Below are positions 4,423-36,954 of a DNA stretch of 55,221 nucleotides, piece by piece. The stretch is taken from the NCBI GenBank assembly GCA_944358455.1, contig CALVRE010000018.1, positions 1 to 55,221 of the forward strand, given 5' to 3'. Within the stretch, counting starts at the first letter, position 1. Each line of letters begins with the position of its first letter. The notes beneath the pieces were generated by a model. The model saw only the letters and a list, made by a program, of their open reading frames with translations. It was not told where the DNA came from and searched no databases. The stretch is from an uncultured Bacilli bacterium (lineage in GTDB: Bacteria; Bacillota_I; Bacilli_A; RF39; UBA660). The position numbers and the translations under genes are program-made.

Positions 4423-4447
4423 AAAAATATGAAGAAATAGTAATATA

Positions 4448-4530
4448 GTGTGCAAGAAACATGAAAAAGAACGTTTTTTTCTTGGCTGCGATAAGCACAC
4501 TGGAGGGAGGATTATATACCCCTCTTTTTT
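4448..4530 (+). ncRNA. leader/small RNA module A: two hairpins ending in a terminator
   Basis: GTGTGC (4448-4453) pairs with GCACAC (4495-4500) around a longer insert than in the sister copies; inside it CAAGAAA can pair with TTTCTTG. Immediately after comes GAGGG (4503-4507) pairing with CCCTC (4520-4524) and six T residues (4525-4530). The same two-hairpin order occurs at 10854-10903 and 33372-33419, also before genes for exported pilin-like proteins. It could be a transcription attenuator or a short stand-alone RNA. I do not recognise it as a known riboswitch class. Confidence 0.55.
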
Positions 4531-4549
4531 CTTGACTCTATAATATATA

Positions 4550-4614: not shown

Positions 4615-6129
4615 ATGAAAAAAAGAGGATTTACATTAATTGAATTATTGGCCGTAATCATCATATTAGCGGTAATTGCGTTAATTGCAACCCCACTAGT
4701 TATGAATATTATCGAAGAAAGTAGAAAATCAAGTTTTCGTGTTAGTGTTGAAAATATGATCCGAGCAATGGAAACAGATCAAGCAACACAAGGATTTATT
4801 CCCTTATCTTATCAATTTCCACTAGATGCTGATACAACTTTAAAATTAGATGGAAAGATAGATGATTGGCAAGGAAAGTCATCGATTGATGAGGATGGAA
4901 ACACAGCAGTTTCCATCTATAACGGAACTTATTGTGCGTATAAAAAGAAAGATGATAATTCTGTTTCTGTTGAAAAAGTAAGTAGCGAGAAAGAATGCCT
5001 TGATTTTACTAATCCTATTTTACCAGTTATGATGGAAGGCGAACTTGCATCTATAGATATGGAGACAGTAGAATTTGATCCTGGGTCTTCTAAATTTTTA
5101 AATGGACCAATTACCAGAGAAGAAATTGAAAGTATAAGGATCAATAATACGAAAGAAGTACCAGGAACAGTATTAGGAAGCTTTGATGTTTCAGAAAGTC
5201 AAAATGAAAGTGTAATTGCTTACTACAGTGATAATGATAGTGATGGATTATATGAAGTAGTAATTGGAGGAGAAGGAGGAGTTTTAGCCTCAACCAATGC
5301 TCGATTTTTATTTGGAGCGTTATATAATGTGACAACGATTGATTTAAGTAATTTCGATACATCCCAAGTAACAGATATGTATGCTATGCTTGCTGTATGT
5401 CCAAGTTTAACCGAGTTGAACATCAGTAATTTTGACACATCCCAAGTAGCAAATATGAGTTATATGTTTACTAATTGTAAAGGTTTAACCAAGCTAAATT
5501 TAAGTGATTTTAATACATCAAAAGTAACGAATATGAGTTATATGTTTGCTGATTGCAGTAGTTTAACAGAATTAGATTTGAGTAATTTCAATACATCAAA
5601 AGTAACGAATATGGGTAATATGTTTTATATGTGTCAAGGTTTAACAGAATTAGATTTGAGTAATTTCAATACATCAAAGGTAACAGATATGGCTTCTATG
5701 TTTGAGGGCTGTAGTAGTTTAACAGAGTTAAATGTAAGTAACTTTAACACATCAAAGGTAACAGATATGAATCGTATGTTTTCCTCTTGTGGAAGTTTAA
5801 CAAAATTAGATTTAAGTAGTTTTGACACATTAAAGGTAACAAATATGGGTTCTATGTTCTCTTGGTGTATCAGTTTAACAGAATTAAATGTAAGTAACTT
5901 TAACACGTCTCAAGTAACAGATATGAGAACTATGTTTTATTCTTGTGGTAGTTTAACAAGTTTAGATCTTCGTAATATGACCTTCGATAGTGTAACTAGT
6001 TATTCAAGTATGTTTTCTAATATAACCTCTGGTATTACCGTTACGGTAAAAGATAGTAGTGCCAAAACCTTCATCGAATCAAGATTAAGTGAAGCAAGTG
6101 TAACAGGAACGGTTACGATTGCCTCTTAA
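4615..6129 (+). CDS. prepilin-signal protein with BspA-type (DUF285) leucine-rich repeats
   Basis: A 504-residue surface protein candidate. Residues 1-30 are a class III (type IV prepilin) signal: MKKRG then FTLIELLAVIIIL, with the cleavage site after Gly5 and Glu at mature position 5. After a spacer of about 200 residues come about nine BspA/DUF285 repeats of 25 residues with consensus LTELDLSNFNTSKVTNMSYM, each usually ending in C plus two residues. Such repeats mediate host or matrix contact in other bacteria. The N-terminal 30 residues are nearly identical to those of the proteins at 10923 and 40363. RBS AGGAGAG. Regulated by the upstream module and probably an internal promoter. No pilus assembly genes are nearby. 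Confidence 0.85.
   Translation: MKKRGFTLIELLAVIIILAVIALIATPLVMNIIEESRKSSFRVSVENMIRAMETDQATQGFIPLSYQFPLDADTTLKLDGKIDDWQGKSSIDEDGNTAVSIYNGTYCAYKKKDDNSVSVEKVSSEKECLDFTNPILPVMMEGELASIDMETVEFDPGSSKFLNGPITREEIESIRINNTKEVPGTVLGSFDVSESQNESVIAYYSDNDSDGLYEVVIGGEGGVLASTNARFLFGALYNVTTIDLSNFDTSQVTDMYAMLAVCPSLTELNISNFDTSQVANMSYMFTNCKGLTKLNLSDFNTSKVTNMSYMFADCSSLTELDLSNFNTSKVTNMGNMFYMCQGLTELDLSNFNTSKVTDMASMFEGCSSLTELNVSNFNTSKVTDMNRMFSSCGSLTKLDLSSFDTLKVTNMGSMFSWCISLTELNVSNFNTSQVTDMRTMFYSCGSLTSLDLRNMTFDSVTSYSSMFSNITSGITVTVKDSSAKTFIESRLSEASVTGTVTIAS
5341..5965 (+). repeat. 75-bp tandem repeats encoding BspA-type LRRs
   Basis: About eight diverged in-frame units of 75 bp encode the 25-residue leucine-rich repeats. 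Several units share long near-identical blocks around codons for NFNTSKVT, so slippage or recombination between units is plausible. Confidence 0.8.
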
Positions 6130-10469: not shown

Positions 10470-10778
10470 ATGGGTTTTAAAACAGTAAATGATGGATGGA
10501 ACAGTTTAAAAAAGCAAGCAGATGCATTAGGAACGGAATATGCAACGAGAGAGCTTGACTTAGGAGGAAATTTAGATTCACTCTTGAGTATATTAAAAGA
10601 TGCTGTATCACCAAGTCAAATAGAGGCGATGATAGCGCAGTTGCCAACTGTATCAGGAATTTGGCCATATGATAACATCAACTATCAAAAAGTTGAAAAT
10701 GTTTGTAATGAATATGGACATTATGCTATCGAAAGACAACAAGACTTATCTGATGTTAATGTTCGCAAATTATCATAA
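10470..10778 (+). CDS. small hypothetical protein
   Basis: A 102-residue soluble protein with no recognisable family. The start at 10470 has AAAAGGGGAG upstream; an ORF extension to 10437 would overlap the preceding gene and lacks an RBS. The N-terminus MGFKTVNDGWNSLKKQADALG looks helical and faintly like WXG100 substrates, but the WxG turn is missing. Probably co-transcribed with the gene at 9914. Confidence 0.7.
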   Translation: MGFKTVNDGWNSLKKQADALGTEYATRELDLGGNLDSLLSILKDAVSPSQIEAMIAQLPTVSGIWPYDNINYQKVENVCNEYGHYAIERQQDLSDVNVRKLS

Positions 10779-10798
10779 GATGATTTGCTTTTTTGATC

Positions 10799-10827
10799 TT
10801 GCAAATAGAAATTAAATCTGTTAAAAT
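10799..10827 (+). promoter_or_regulatory. promoter of leader module B
   Basis: TTGCAA (10799-10804), 17-bp spacer, TAAAAT (10822-10827). The predicted transcript starts near 10834, giving a leader of about 89 bases that contains the two hairpins. Spacing and -35 match the promoters of modules A and C. Confidence 0.6.
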
Positions 10828-10853
10828 AAAAACAGAAATAAATAATAAAATGA

Positions 10854-10903
10854 GTGTGCGATATGCACGCGGGGGGGGGGTAAATATTTACCCTCTCTTT
10901 TTT
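10854..10903 (+). ncRNA. leader module B: GTGTGC hairpin, G10 tract and terminator-like hairpin
   Basis: GTGTGC (10854-10859) pairs with GCACGC (10865-10870) around GATAT with one wobble pair. A G10 homopolymer follows at once (10871-10880). Its last Gs form a perfect 16-bp palindrome GGGTAAATATTTACCC (10878-10893), then CTCTC and six Ts. The T-run ends 20 bases before the start codon, so termination here would block the gene. I do not recognise the structure as a known riboswitch; see modules A and C. Confidence 0.65.
10871..10880 (+). repeat. G10 homopolymer
   Basis: Ten consecutive G residues within a very AT-rich intergenic region and inside the G-rich arm of a terminator-like hairpin. 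The sister modules have interrupted G-runs at this place (GAGGGAGG and GAGGAGGGG). Confidence 0.9.
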
Positions 10904-10922
10904 GTTGGAAAGAGGAATTGAA

Positions 10923-12935
10923 ATGAAACAAAAAGGATTTACGTTAATTGAATTGCTCGCAGTGATTGTGGTACTGGCAGTCATTGCTTTGATCGCAACC
11001 CCACTTGTGATGAATGCGATCGAAGATGCAAGAAAAGGAGCTTTAGAGAGAAGCTATGATTATATCGAAGATAGTGCCTCTAACTATGTGTATGCGAATT
11101 ATAATGAATTGAATATTCCAGATTATGTAGATTATTATTTGCCAGTACAAGAATTAACAGACAATGGTTATTTGAAAAATGCAACCGAAGAAATGAATCA
11201 AGAATATGTGATTGTGAAAAAAAGTGATGATGATATGACATTCTATTATACAGGAAGAGATCAGAATCCCTATGAAACGAATGGAACGTTAAAAGAGAAT
11301 ATCGAAAGTGATACCTCTCATATTGTTAAAAATGTGGTCATCAATGGAGTAACCGTCAATAAAGTCATTGGAACCAAAGCAGAAAAAAACACAACGATGA
11401 AAAACTATGTTTGGTATAGTGGAAACTTATGGCAAGTGTTGGAGACAACGGATGAATATGTCAAAATGGTTTTGGCTCATAGTATTACGAGTATTCCTTA
11501 TGGAGAAACAAGTGACTGGAACGCAAGTTGGGTAAGGAAATGGTTAAATGAAATGGATTCTAGTAGTACTTATGATGGAATCTTCTATCATGGTTTATCG
11601 AGAACGGATTTACTCTTAGATGGACAATTTTGTTTGGATGAACCAACGGTAACTACTCGTTTGAAGTTATCCGATGGTGGAGATTATATTGTAAGTCTAC
11701 CATCTACATCATCTAAAATTAGTAATTGTCAGAACATTTCAAAGGATAAAGTAGGACTTTTGACCTTTGAAGACTACGTATATGCGAACAATGGAACAAG
11801 TATGACATTCACAGGAGGAAGTTTCTTAGATGAAGATGAGTTTACGTGGACGATGACAAAATATACAGGTAATGGACAAAACAATTATATGTGGATCCAA
11901 TGGTACGAAAATATAGATGGAAAGAGTGGGAACATCGCAGTGGATACAGGAGGAACAGTGGATGGAACAACAAAATCTTCTCAATTCAGTAGGACCAACA
12001 ATTATGGTCATGGAGTAAGACCCGTGATATATATGAAGAGTCATGTTTTGGTATCATCAGGGACAGGGACGAAAAAAGATCCCTTTGTATTAGTAAGTGA
12101 AAAGAAAAAGGTAAGTAAATTAAATCAAGCAACGATAGGGGAATATATTTATTTAGATGAGAGCAACAGTCCGAACACCACTACTACGGAAACGGTTGTG
12201 AATGGGCTTACGTATTCTTATAACAAGAACCAAGTCAGATATCGAATCATTGATATTCTGGATGATGGAAGTATCAAAGTAGAACGAGCTGACATATTAA
12301 GAGACTTACCAAATACGATTGCGATTCAATCTGGCATATATGTACCATATTACTATGTGGGAGAAGCTTCTACTTCAACAGGATGTGCATACATCAATGG
12401 AACTTATTATTATGGAGGATGTATCAATCATAATTATTTCAAACCAACAGAAGGGAATGGAGAATATAGTTATACCAACAGTATGAATATAGCGTATTAT
12501 TTGAATAATGCAAGTAATAGTTTTTATAACTGGTTCAGTGATGATACGAAAAGTTGGATTGTGAATGCGACATGGGATTTACCAGTAACGGCTCATGGAA
12601 TGGATTACAGTATTCGAATGGACCGAAGTCAAGATATAACAGGGCAAACGAATTATTGGAACAACACGTATGATGGAAGAGTGACAGCTTATGTTGGATT
12701 ACCATCATATGGAGAGAGATATAGTGGAAATGATTTGAACGCTTCTTACTGGTATATGAATCGATGTGTAAACTCCTCTTCCTTTGTGGGACGCGTCCGC
12801 AGCGGCGGCTATGCGTCTGGTTACCATGCAGGCGATCATTGGAATGGGGTTCGCCCAGTATTGGTATTAAATTCTAATCTTTATATCATTTCTGGAAATG
12901 GAACGAGTAATCAACCATATCAAGTTAGTTTATAA
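10923..12935 (+). CDS. prepilin-signal protein with two C-terminal DUF6273-like repeats and a GC-rich variable-like end
   Basis: A 670-residue surface protein candidate. The prepilin signal is MKQKG then FTLIELLAVIVVL (cleavage after Gly5, Glu at +5). After a pilin-like segment, two related domains follow (about 150-395 and 396-670), each ending in GVRPV, a short spacer and a GTG.KKDPF or GTS.QPYQ motif, as in DUF6273/lectin-like modules of gut Firmicutes. Residues 623-645 are encoded by a 69-bp block of about 64% G+C unlike the rest of the gene. ATG 10923 is preferred over the TTG codons at 10902/10905, because AAAGAGG fits it and the prepilin signal begins there. Likely regulated by module B. 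Confidence 0.85.
   Translation: MKQKGFTLIELLAVIVVLAVIALIATPLVMNAIEDARKGALERSYDYIEDSASNYVYANYNELNIPDYVDYYLPVQELTDNGYLKNATEEMNQEYVIVKKSDDDMTFYYTGRDQNPYETNGTLKENIESDTSHIVKNVVINGVTVNKVIGTKAEKNTTMKNYVWYSGNLWQVLETTDEYVKMVLAHSITSIPYGETSDWNASWVRKWLNEMDSSSTYDGIFYHGLSRTDLLLDGQFCLDEPTVTTRLKLSDGGDYIVSLPSTSSKISNCQNISKDKVGLLTFEDYVYANNGTSMTFTGGSFLDEDEFTWTMTKYTGNGQNNYMWIQWYENIDGKSGNIAVDTGGTVDGTTKSSQFSRTNNYGHGVRPVIYMKSHVLVSSGTGTKKDPFVLVSEKKKVSKLNQATIGEYIYLDESNSPNTTTTETVVNGLTYSYNKNQVRYRIIDILDDGSIKVERADILRDLPNTIAIQSGIYVPYYYVGEASTSTGCAYINGTYYYGGCINHNYFKPTEGNGEYSYTNSMNIAYYLNNASNSFYNWFSDDTKSWIVNATWDLPVTAHGMDYSIRMDRSQDITGQTNYWNNTYDGRVTAYVGLPSYGERYSGNDLNASYWYMNRCVNSSSFVGRVRSGGYASGYHAGDHWNGVRPVLVLNSNLYIISGNGTSNQPYQVSL
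12789..12857 (+). other. GC-rich variable-region-like block
   Basis: 69 bases with 44 G/C in a roughly one-third G+C genome. It encodes residues 623-645, starts with the palindrome GGACGCGTCC, and has six consecutive codons ending in C (CGC GTC CGC AGC GGC GGC). Outside the block the gene prefers AGA, CGA and GGA. It sits 26 codons before the stop, directly over the GVRP signature that ends the lectin-like domain. Confidence 0.6.
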
Positions 12936-26669: not shown

Positions 26670-28215
26670 TGAAGGGAATCGTTTAAAGGAAATTATCGAT
26701 GTTATTCGTGAGCATAATTTGATAAAAGATCAATCTCCTGAAAACATTCGTTCCATGATCGAAGATTTAGGTCCCACTTTTGTGAAAATGGGGCAGATTC
26801 TATCTTCTCGTGGGGATTTGATCCCTAGAGATCTTTGTGAGGAATTAAAAAAATTACGTTGTGCAGTAAAGCCGATGTCTTATGAGGAAGTAGAAGAAAT
26901 TTTGAATCGTGAATATAATGGACATGTGAATGATATTTTTGTTTCGATCGAAGAAACACCAATTGGATCGGCTTCCATTGCCCAAACACATAAAGGAATG
27001 TTAAAGACGGGAGAAACGGTCGCCATTAAAGTTCAACGAAAAGACATTTATCAGATGATGACATTAGATGCGAAATTGTTGAAGAGAACGATATCGATTT
27101 TGAAATTAGATAAATTCTTCGGTAATGTTGCCGATTTGAAGGCTATTGTCGATGAAATGTATGAAAGTGCGAAGGAAGAAATGGATTTTATCATTGAAGC
27201 GAATCATATTGAAGAGTTTAAACGCAATAATGATGATATTCTTTATATCAAACCACTTTCTGTATACAAAGAGTTTTCCACACCTTATGTGTTGGTGATG
27301 GAATATATTGATGCTCCATTTATCAACGATAAAAAGACTTTACTTGAACAAGGATATGATATGGAAGAAATCGGTAGTAAACTTGCCGATCATTATATGA
27401 AACAAGCGATCGATGATGGTTTTTATCATGCAGATCCTCATAGTGATAACATCAAAATTCAAGATGGAAAAATCGTCTATTTAGATTTTGGGATGATGGG
27501 AAGATTAAGTGCCAAAAATAAAGAGTTGTTAAATCGATGTGTGATCGCAATTATCAAGAATGATATTTCAGAAATTGCTCACTTATTGACCACTTTAGAT
27601 ACAAGTCGTAATTCGATTGATTATCGAAAATTAACTCGCGATATTAAGAAGATTTTAGATAAAAATGGAACGACTGATATCATCGATATTGATGTGAAAG
27701 AATTTGCTCTCGATATGTTTGATTTGTTAAATTCTAATAAGATAACACTTCCAAAGGATATTTCGATGCTGTTACGTGGTATTGTTGTTTTAGAAGGTGT
27801 GTTAGAAGAGATTGATCCAAATATCAATTTGATGCGAGTTTTAAAAAATCGTTTTCAAAATCAAAATTTTTTAACAAAAGAAAACTTAGAAAAATTATCA
27901 TTGCGTTTTGTTGAAAATGCTCATGATTTATTGATGATTCCTGGGGAGACACTATCTCTTTTAAAAGGGATCAATAGTGGAGAATTACGTTTTAATGTGG
28001 AACTTCATGATTCAGAAAAACGATGTAATGATACGAGACATCTCTTTTATCAAGTAATTATTGCCATTCTCGATCTTGCTCTTATTGTTGGTATTAGTAT
28101 TTTGATGATAACAGATCAAGCGAGTCAATCTTGGCTTTTCTATATTTATATTACATTTGCAATTATTTTGACTGCTTGGTTATTTTTTCAAATGATTCGT
28201 CAAAAAAGAAAATAA
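26662..28215 (+). CDS. AarF/UbiB/ABC1-family atypical kinase
   Basis: A 517-residue UbiB-family protein. The hallmark KxGQ motif appears in TFVKMGQILSSRGDLIP near residue 35. The catalytic Lys is in VAIKVQRKDIY, and the catalytic/metal motifs are HADPHSDN and YLDFGMMGRL. Two C-terminal hydrophobic segments (about 455-510) should anchor it to the membrane. Family members support quinone biosynthesis or lipid homeostasis through an unusual ATPase/kinase. No ubiquinone or menaquinone genes are nearby. Coupled to the phasin-like gene upstream; a terminator follows. Confidence 0.88.
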   Translation: MSSEGNRLKEIIDVIREHNLIKDQSPENIRSMIEDLGPTFVKMGQILSSRGDLIPRDLCEELKKLRCAVKPMSYEEVEEILNREYNGHVNDIFVSIEETPIGSASIAQTHKGMLKTGETVAIKVQRKDIYQMMTLDAKLLKRTISILKLDKFFGNVADLKAIVDEMYESAKEEMDFIIEANHIEEFKRNNDDILYIKPLSVYKEFSTPYVLVMEYIDAPFINDKKTLLEQGYDMEEIGSKLADHYMKQAIDDGFYHADPHSDNIKIQDGKIVYLDFGMMGRLSAKNKELLNRCVIAIIKNDISEIAHLLTTLDTSRNSIDYRKLTRDIKKILDKNGTTDIIDIDVKEFALDMFDLLNSNKITLPKDISMLLRGIVVLEGVLEEIDPNINLMRVLKNRFQNQNFLTKENLEKLSLRFVENAHDLLMIPGETLSLLKGINSGELRFNVELHDSEKRCNDTRHLFYQVIIAILDLALIVGISILMITDQASQSWLFYIYITFAIILTAWLFFQMIRQKRK

Positions 28216-33347: not shown

Positions 33348-33371
33348 GAGAGCAGAATGAAATAATAATAT

Positions 33372-33419
33372 TGTGTGCATAATGCATACAGAGGAGGGGA
33401 GTACTTACCCCTTTTTTTT
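33372..33419 (+). ncRNA. leader module C: GTGTGC hairpin and terminator-like hairpin
   Basis: TGTGTGC (33372-33378) pairs with GCATACA (33384-33390, one wobble) around ATAAT. GAGGAGGGG follows, its GGGG (33396-33399) pairing with CCCC (33408-33411), then eight T residues. The T-run ends 17 bases before the start codon at 33437. Closest to module B in length and spacing. Confidence 0.6.
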
Positions 33420-33436
33420 GTTGAAAGGAGTTCAGT

Positions 33437-33766
33437 ATGAAAAAGTGGAAATTCATAGGATTGATCGTTGTTTTGATGTTGATTACAAGTACGACGACTT
33501 ATGCCGTGACAACCTTATATGATGCCGTAGAAGTAGAATACGATAATCGTAATAGTGGAACAGAAGAAATAGAAGTGCAGGGAGCGATTGATAAACTTTA
33601 TGATTTAGTGGGAAAGTGCCCAGAAGGATACATCTGTAAACCAGTTATTCGGACATGTTTTATAGTGGAATCTCTGATATTACCAATAGCAGTGCTAGCT
33701 AAAATTTTTATTGAAGTAAGACTCAGCGATGTAAATAGAATAGGAACGATTACTATTAAAAATTAA
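33437..33766 (+). CDS. small exported protein, possibly truncated or frameshifted
   Basis: A 109-residue protein. The signal peptide has a KKWK start, a hydrophobic core and a cleavage site near TYA (about residue 22). The mature part YDAVEVEYDNRNSGTEEIEV then QGAIDKLYDLV with CPEGYIC resembles the N-terminus of larger exported proteins in this bacterial group. After CKPVIR the sequence turns hydrophobic and unlike an exported domain. In another frame the same bases read SYSDMFYSGISDITNSSAS, which looks more natural, so a frameshift is possible. RBS GAAAGGAG directly follows module C. Confidence 0.55.
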   Translation: MKKWKFIGLIVVLMLITSTTTYAVTTLYDAVEVEYDNRNSGTEEIEVQGAIDKLYDLVGKCPEGYICKPVIRTCFIVESLILPIAVLAKIFIEVRLSDVNRIGTITIKN

Positions 33767-36734: not shown

Positions 36735-36954
36735 ATTAAATGCGAAGAACAAGAGGAGTACCTTGTAATTATGGATAGAGAGTTCGTGGTTGGTGGAAGC
36801 GAATCGTAAGAAGAGGGAAGGTAGCTTGGGAGTTGCTTACTGAATAGTTAGGTAAAGACGTATCCTTGCGTTAAAAGGTCGAGGTAATTTCTTAGTAAAT
36901 TACGAATTAAGGTGGTACCACGTCATCACGTCCTTATAGGATGTGATTTTTTTT
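36735..36954 (+). promoter_or_regulatory. T-box riboswitch, valine specific (GUA specifier)
   Basis: A tRNA-sensing leader. Stem I base CAAG (36750-36753) pairs with CTTG (36825-36828). The loop-E AGTA lies at 36757-36760 and the apical GGTTGGTGGAAGC is present. The specifier-loop codon GTA (36821-36823) sits beside the closing AAGG/CCTT pairs and reads valine. The conserved T-box AAGGTGGTACCACG is at 36909-36922, with TGGT ready to pair with the tRNA end. The competing terminator is ATCACGTCC / GGATGTGAT plus T8 (36925-36954). It controls the HD gene and valS. Confidence 0.93.

Follow-up and report, generated by a model that had tools for sequence, protein, structure and literature searches.

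The run of ten Gs at positions 10871-10880 of the window, the 55,221-nucleotide stretch of DNA from an uncultured member of the Bacilli analysed here, forms one arm of a predicted terminator within a two-hairpin leader that is repeated ahead of surface protein genes. The finding extends beyond what was first noted: runs of G lie before surface genes across the lineage, and in this genus they lie within a predicted attenuator. Judged from the sequence, this conserved predicted attenuator is real; phase variation by the tract in the window is plausible and unproven.

The letters of the run are exactly as reported in an earlier note on this DNA, and its argument that such a run is unlikely by chance held up. 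The GC content of the window is 32.5%, and its G-runs of at least six are one G10, one G7 and two G6. Overlapping matches to G7 were found five times, compared with 0.68 expected from dinucleotide shuffles of the window. In the whole genome (G000, 1,172,482 bases in 43 contigs) there were six G-runs of at least nine, five of them G10 and one G9, and each of the six occupies the same position within a copy of one repeated leader. An assembly artefact was rejected because the same element, with 8 to 11 Gs, was present in G000, G001, G153, and G200, four genomes that had been assembled separately.

The window leader is encoded on the forward strand in the order own candidate promoter, hairpin 1, terminator hairpin with the G-run as its 5' arm, and gene. 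A terminator-like stem following the preceding 113-aa ORF (10765-10788) would separate the leader from upstream transcription. The candidate promoter (10799-10827) reads TTGCAA-17-TAAAAT with a TG ahead of the second hexamer; it scores 9/12, and about three such sites are also found in shuffles of the region. Sister leaders have a candidate promoter in the same placement, and promoter-like sites scoring at least 10/12 were found upstream of 29 of 62 leaders versus 8% of mononucleotide shuffles. Next are an A-rich leader start (10836-10854), which is kept among short-type leaders, and hairpin 1 (GTGTGC-GATAT-GCACGC, 10854-10870), predicted from folding and from pairing across 11 leaders. Hairpin 2 follows directly. 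The G10 run is its 5' arm according to sequence, stem search and folding, the palindrome TAAATATTTA (10881-10890) is its top and sets the register in the folding, and CCCTCTCTTTTTT (10891-10903) is the 3' arm entering the U-tract, as found by stem search and folding. The arm formed by the G-run faces CCCTCTCTTT. Both methods thus place the run in a terminator-like stem (10871-10900), as had been proposed. The predicted energy of the hairpin pair is -25.1 kcal/mol (z -3.45), and 1 of 200 shuffles was equally stable. The ATG of the gene lies 19 nt past CCCTCTCTTTTTT. The gene itself (10923-12935, forward strand) encodes 670 aa with the N-terminus MKQKGFTLIELLAVIV, which is type IV pilin-like (N_methyl, PF07963, E 1.6e-7), in agreement with the earlier assignment as a surface protein. 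Its relatives in named genomes (10 loci, 38-47% identity) did not have a G-run of at least eight.

Terminator-based attenuators of Bacilli are 5' leader hairpins that end in a U-tract before the gene. The window leader resembles them in its hairpins and U-tract: a G+C-containing stem and then a T-run lie between the candidate promoter and the gene, and compensatory changes support the stem. It differs from them in its homopolymer arm, and none of the Rfam families matched over the leader at gathering score. It also has what characterizes poly-G loci, a long mononucleotide tract in the regulatory DNA of a surface gene.

Sixty-two leaders were collected from three genomes in two genera: 14 in G000, 29 in G001 (another species of the same genus), and 19 in G153 (another genus); C41, C43:43155 and weak R1 hits were left out of these counts, and C41 was also left out of the pair count. 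A covariance model built on seven copies had matches in 7 of the 193 family genomes (E<=1e-3): 14 in G000, 25 in G001, 19 in G153, and one each in four other genomes. Among these four, G200 (L205) clearly contained the same leader, with the stem ATTTTGC/GCAAAAT before a pilin-like gene, and leader features were absent from the single matches L202 and L204. The plain pattern of G8, C/U arm and T-run was found in 5 of the 193 genomes (reversed control 0). One of the five was G151 (C14), in which a G12 lies outside any leader, and the pattern also matched C20:17717 and C33:141 of G153, outside the 19 leaders of that genome.

Analysis of the leaders showed that the pairs of hairpin 1 were kept while the sequence varied (GTGTGC/GCACAC, GTATGC/GCATAC, ATTTTGC/GCAAAAT, and in G153 GTTTG/CAAAC). 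In 11 short leaders every cell of hairpin 1 was paired, with both-side changes at two of six pairs. Across the hairpins of these 11 leaders, 96.4% of cells were paired versus 92.5% in shuffles, which was above all 500 shuffles, and 12 cells were changed on both sides versus 4.6, a number that none of the 500 reached. Five pairs showed both-side changes, and 46 of 500 shuffles had that many. Slid registers were 48-71% paired.

Two further leaders were found on the forward strand of the window. The first (4433-4532), with the arm TGGAGGGAGG before position 4515, precedes a pilin-like gene (4615-6129), and the second (33358-33419), with the arm AGAGGAGGGGAG near 33390, precedes a 109-aa ORF with a signal peptide (33437-33766). 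The earlier note had described interrupted runs in the sister modules, which would be stable. The arms of these two window leaders are indeed interrupted, but pure runs are found elsewhere in the genome, a G10 in four other leaders and a G9 in one. The closest copy of the window leader in the genome (L144, minus strand of C43, G000:C43 ~26910-27120) is identical at 200 of 204 positions to window 10836-11039 and has the arm GGAGGGGGGG, of equal length with one A opposite U. L144 consists of the leader and the first codons, followed by a frame of only 45 aa, and could be a pseudogene or a recombination donor fragment.

Several other features were observed around these leaders. In the product of the gene at 4615-6129, the pilin-like N-terminus is joined to DUF285 and to leucine-rich repeats. 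The 109-aa ORF after the third window leader (33371-33766) resembles the first part of a family of longer proteins, of which the C17 copy has 461 aa, and is possibly truncated. Upstream of the run, six leaders (L009, L042, L121, L128, L133, and L137) share an insert with AGTGTCCAAAAATATGATAACATCCC or a near variant of it, and several of them lie on contigs that stop about 145 bp before the run; a stretch similar to this insert is also found in G012 (L140). The C8 and C27 leaders look mosaic, with an insert in common and different downstream genes. The window also contains a T-box leader (36736-36938, RF00230).

Forty-four of the 62 leaders had a pure G arm, with lengths of 8 (two leaders), 9 (nine), 10 (29), and 11 (four); the call for L003 was made after a T leading the run was stripped. 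The remaining 18 arms were mixed. An A in the arm was opposite U in 28 cases and opposite C in eight, compared with 16.6 expected (5 of 5,000 shuffles were as low), and since A in mixed arms is mostly opposite U, pairing is conserved. A narrower count over 52 of 60 leaders gave 25 opposite U and none opposite C, with the register chosen by pairing; the inclusive count of 62 is preferred because the narrower one is partly circular. At the purine positions of the arm that face U, G was found at 299 of 327 and A at 28, in DNA of about 32% GC. An A-U pair would serve the stem equally, and G is thus favoured far beyond the need for pairing. The leaders that precede queA or, in each of the two species of the genus, an ABC-F gene did not contain a pure G run, and the ABC-F leader pair of G000 and G001 keeps AGTGAGGAG/AGCGAGGAG. 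Against a clean split by gene type, L003 (G10) precedes a gene that does not encode a hydrophobic N-terminus; L085 (G10) precedes an ORF that is glycosyltransferase-like, a name read from its sequence.

These compositions bear on another possible reading of the leader, as an ordinary attenuator or a weak constitutive terminator, with run length under stabilising selection and without phase variation, the G-run being merely a wobble-rich arm, perhaps tuned for opening by a trans-acting factor. The conserved hairpins would fit this, as would copies that look functional although their arm is mixed (GAGAGGAGGGG, for example) and the equal arm length of the closest genome copy. The excess of G opposite U argues against it, and so does the absence of pure runs from the queA and ABC-F leaders.

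The leader was also folded with 3 to 16 Gs. The predicted energy of hairpin 2 was -14.3 kcal/mol with G7, -15.9 with G10 and -17.9 with G13, about -0.5 kcal/mol for each G beyond G7, and the unpaired 3' tail shortened from 8 nt (G7) to 6 (G10) and 2 (G13). Slippage had been expected to alter the strength or the register of the stem; in the folding, strength does change slightly, but the register is constant because the palindrome fixes it. A mild rheostat is therefore predicted, and on/off switching by termination is not. Run length would be expected to have a mild, graded effect on read-through, in either direction. So small an effect on energy would also suit an ordinary attenuator.

Comparison of copies indicated that run length does differ. 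Counterparts in G000 and G001 carry G10 and AGGAGGGG in one case (L003, C8:33125, and L160) and G10 and GGGAGGGGG in another (C32 and L149). In G200 two near-identical leaders are one G apart (G9 and G10), and two G153 copies whose flanks disagree at 4 of 95 columns carry G10 and G9. These comparisons cover paralogues and related species, with one genome per species. Lengths in G153 are narrow: 16 of its 19 leaders have G10, and most of its close leader pairs have G10 in common, which would again be in keeping with stabilising selection in an ordinary attenuator. Narrow length alone is not decisive, however, and does not exclude slippage, because the poly-G of Treponema pallidum tprL is mostly 9 yet ranges from 7 to 11 in vivo (PMC7864442). 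Taken with the varying runs at identical promoter flanks in sister genera described below, which also count against it, we regard an ordinary attenuator as quite possible. Loss of mismatch repair was considered as a cause of the runs and rejected: mutS1 was present in all 11 genomes scanned, and repair has therefore not simply been lost.

Repeat-driven phase variation that acts through a terminator has been described for the pil1 locus of Streptococcus gallolyticus (PMC3894217). As in the window, pil1/pil3 has a repeat tract in the leader and a terminator before the genes, there at a pilus locus with stochastic surface expression (PMC3894217). In that system GCAGA repeats shift a translated leader peptide (PMC3894217). 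In the window, by contrast, one arm of the terminator consists of the mononucleotide run, and a conserved leader peptide was not found in the 62 leaders. If the run nevertheless shifted the frame of a short leader peptide, a ribosome would open or leave the terminator, as in pil1. A frame that starts with ATG passes through the run in 56 of the 62 leaders, and in the window the frame from the ATG at 10850 passes the terminator at G10 and would stop directly after the run at G9. However, a Shine-Dalgarno-like site was absent before any such start in 46 of the 62 leaders (present in 16), start and stop positions vary among leaders, and loops differ, with TAA... in some and TATTAT... in others. 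This makes a leader-peptide switch improbable.

In other genera of the family, G-runs were found in promoter spacers ahead of genes for secreted proteins. The pattern TTGACN{1,10}G8N{1,9}TATAAT matched 34 of the 193 family genomes and 33 of 148 genera, and the reversed control matched 0 in each genome. Across the class it matched 27 of 395 genomes, of which 9 belong to the own family (54 genomes) and 18 lie outside it (341 genomes). Among the 110 matches taken from listings, the spacer was 15-20 nt in 99, and run length differed in 13 of 22 groups with identical flanks. Downstream ORFs were scored at 30 loci, one per genome, of which 27 gave a scored ORF; 25 of these 27 had a strongly hydrophobic N-terminus, versus 11 of 44 other ORFs in the window. 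In G021, 20 of 20 inspected runs (L101-L120) were exactly G9, and 16 of the 20 were in a repeated TGCAACT-G9-TGCRATAC-like element ahead of secreted-like genes. In G012, TTGACAAATATGC is followed by G10, G14 and G14 and then by TATYCT, the spacer being 17 nt at G10. At one G012 locus (L138) the G-run is followed by an inverted repeat, TATCCTAGTCA...TGACTAGGATA, which reaches from the putative -10 as far as the start codon. The runs in promoter spacers, with lengths that differ at identical flanks, make slippage-driven variation of surface genes plausible for the lineage. These sequences support lineage-wide G-runs in the regulatory DNA of surface genes, with lengths differing between copies.

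Such spacers have precedents. In T. pallidum (PMC7864442), poly-G runs of about 7-11 precede several paralogous surface-protein genes (tpr and tp0126), much as the G-runs here do, and that of tp0126 occupies the -35/-10 spacer, with a best spacing of 17 nt. The Neisseria meningitidis porA gene has a G-run in its -35/-10 spacer (PMC3639595, PMC7864442), and so do promoters in the 34 family genomes. The promoter mechanism of T. pallidum matches the sister genera and not the window tract, and the window tract is also unlike porA, being downstream of its own candidate promoter, within a terminator stem and outside any -35/-10 spacer. That the run is a promoter spacer in the window too might be suggested by how common promoter-type runs are in the family, and by insert-type leaders that read TTGCRA, G-run, TATTAT. 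However, the promoter pattern had 0 matches in G000, G001 and G153, the window hexamer 17 nt before TAAATA is GCGATA, and the C/U arm and U-tract are what is conserved, all of which make a promoter spacer in the window highly improbable.

The C8 version of the promoter pattern matched 0 of the 193 family genomes, so that in promoter-type relatives the coding strand invariably carries the run as G. This orientation could point to the G-run as a recognition element (for a protein, or as a G-quadruplex or R-loop) in the transcript or the non-template strand, with length variation incidental, as could the observation that the G-run varies less in G153 than the arm it pairs with. Against it are the mixed arms in 18 of 62 leaders, and a binding factor is not known. 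LoaP-type control is unlikely because exactly one NusG-type protein was found in each of 12 genomes, with no second, LoaP-like NusG paralogue. A recognition element is quite improbable on these grounds.

Seen in the sequences are the repeated leader, conserved pairing, pure runs of G8-11, the link to surface genes and length differences between copies. The reading we prefer, which falls just short of probable, is that the G10 is the contingency-tract arm of an attenuator, and that slippage tunes read-through into the surface gene. The predicted intrinsic terminator in the repeated two-hairpin leader would sit between the promoter of each gene and its surface-protein gene. A pure G arm would pair with C and U alike, and a gain or loss of G would leave the stem intact because G pairs with both. 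Replication slippage would change the length of the run, and only the lower end of the stem would move with it, over the C/U arm and into the U-tract. The frequency of read-through by RNA polymerase into that gene would then be set by run length in small increments, the combination of surface proteins would vary from cell to cell, and the homopolymer would be kept as a contingency tract. We infer frequent slippage in the population, read-through that depends on length, and selection that maintains this effect. Evolution would favour a G homopolymer in the stem, since any length pairs and each G takes one more base of the U-tract. Because promoter spacers of the same lineage also contain G-runs, a single slippery element may have been recruited to two steps of transcription; together with a slippage-tunable attenuator that acts as a stepwise rheostat for many surface genes, this broader proposal is put forward tentatively. 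A search of the open-access PMC literature (titles and abstract starts) found no treatment of this leader or of a G-run as a terminator arm, and nothing was found there on RF39 with phase variation.

The best-known cases of phase variation by mononucleotide runs are in pathogens, among them Neisseria, Campylobacter and Treponema. The uncultured Bacilli described here, whose genomes are about 1.2 Mb in size, have many G-runs ahead of genes for pilin-like and secreted proteins, and these runs occur in two regulatory arrangements. Should their lengths vary, the terminator stem would be a new place for a slippery tract to act, and the surface diversity of these uncultured bacteria would be measurable directly from existing metagenome reads.
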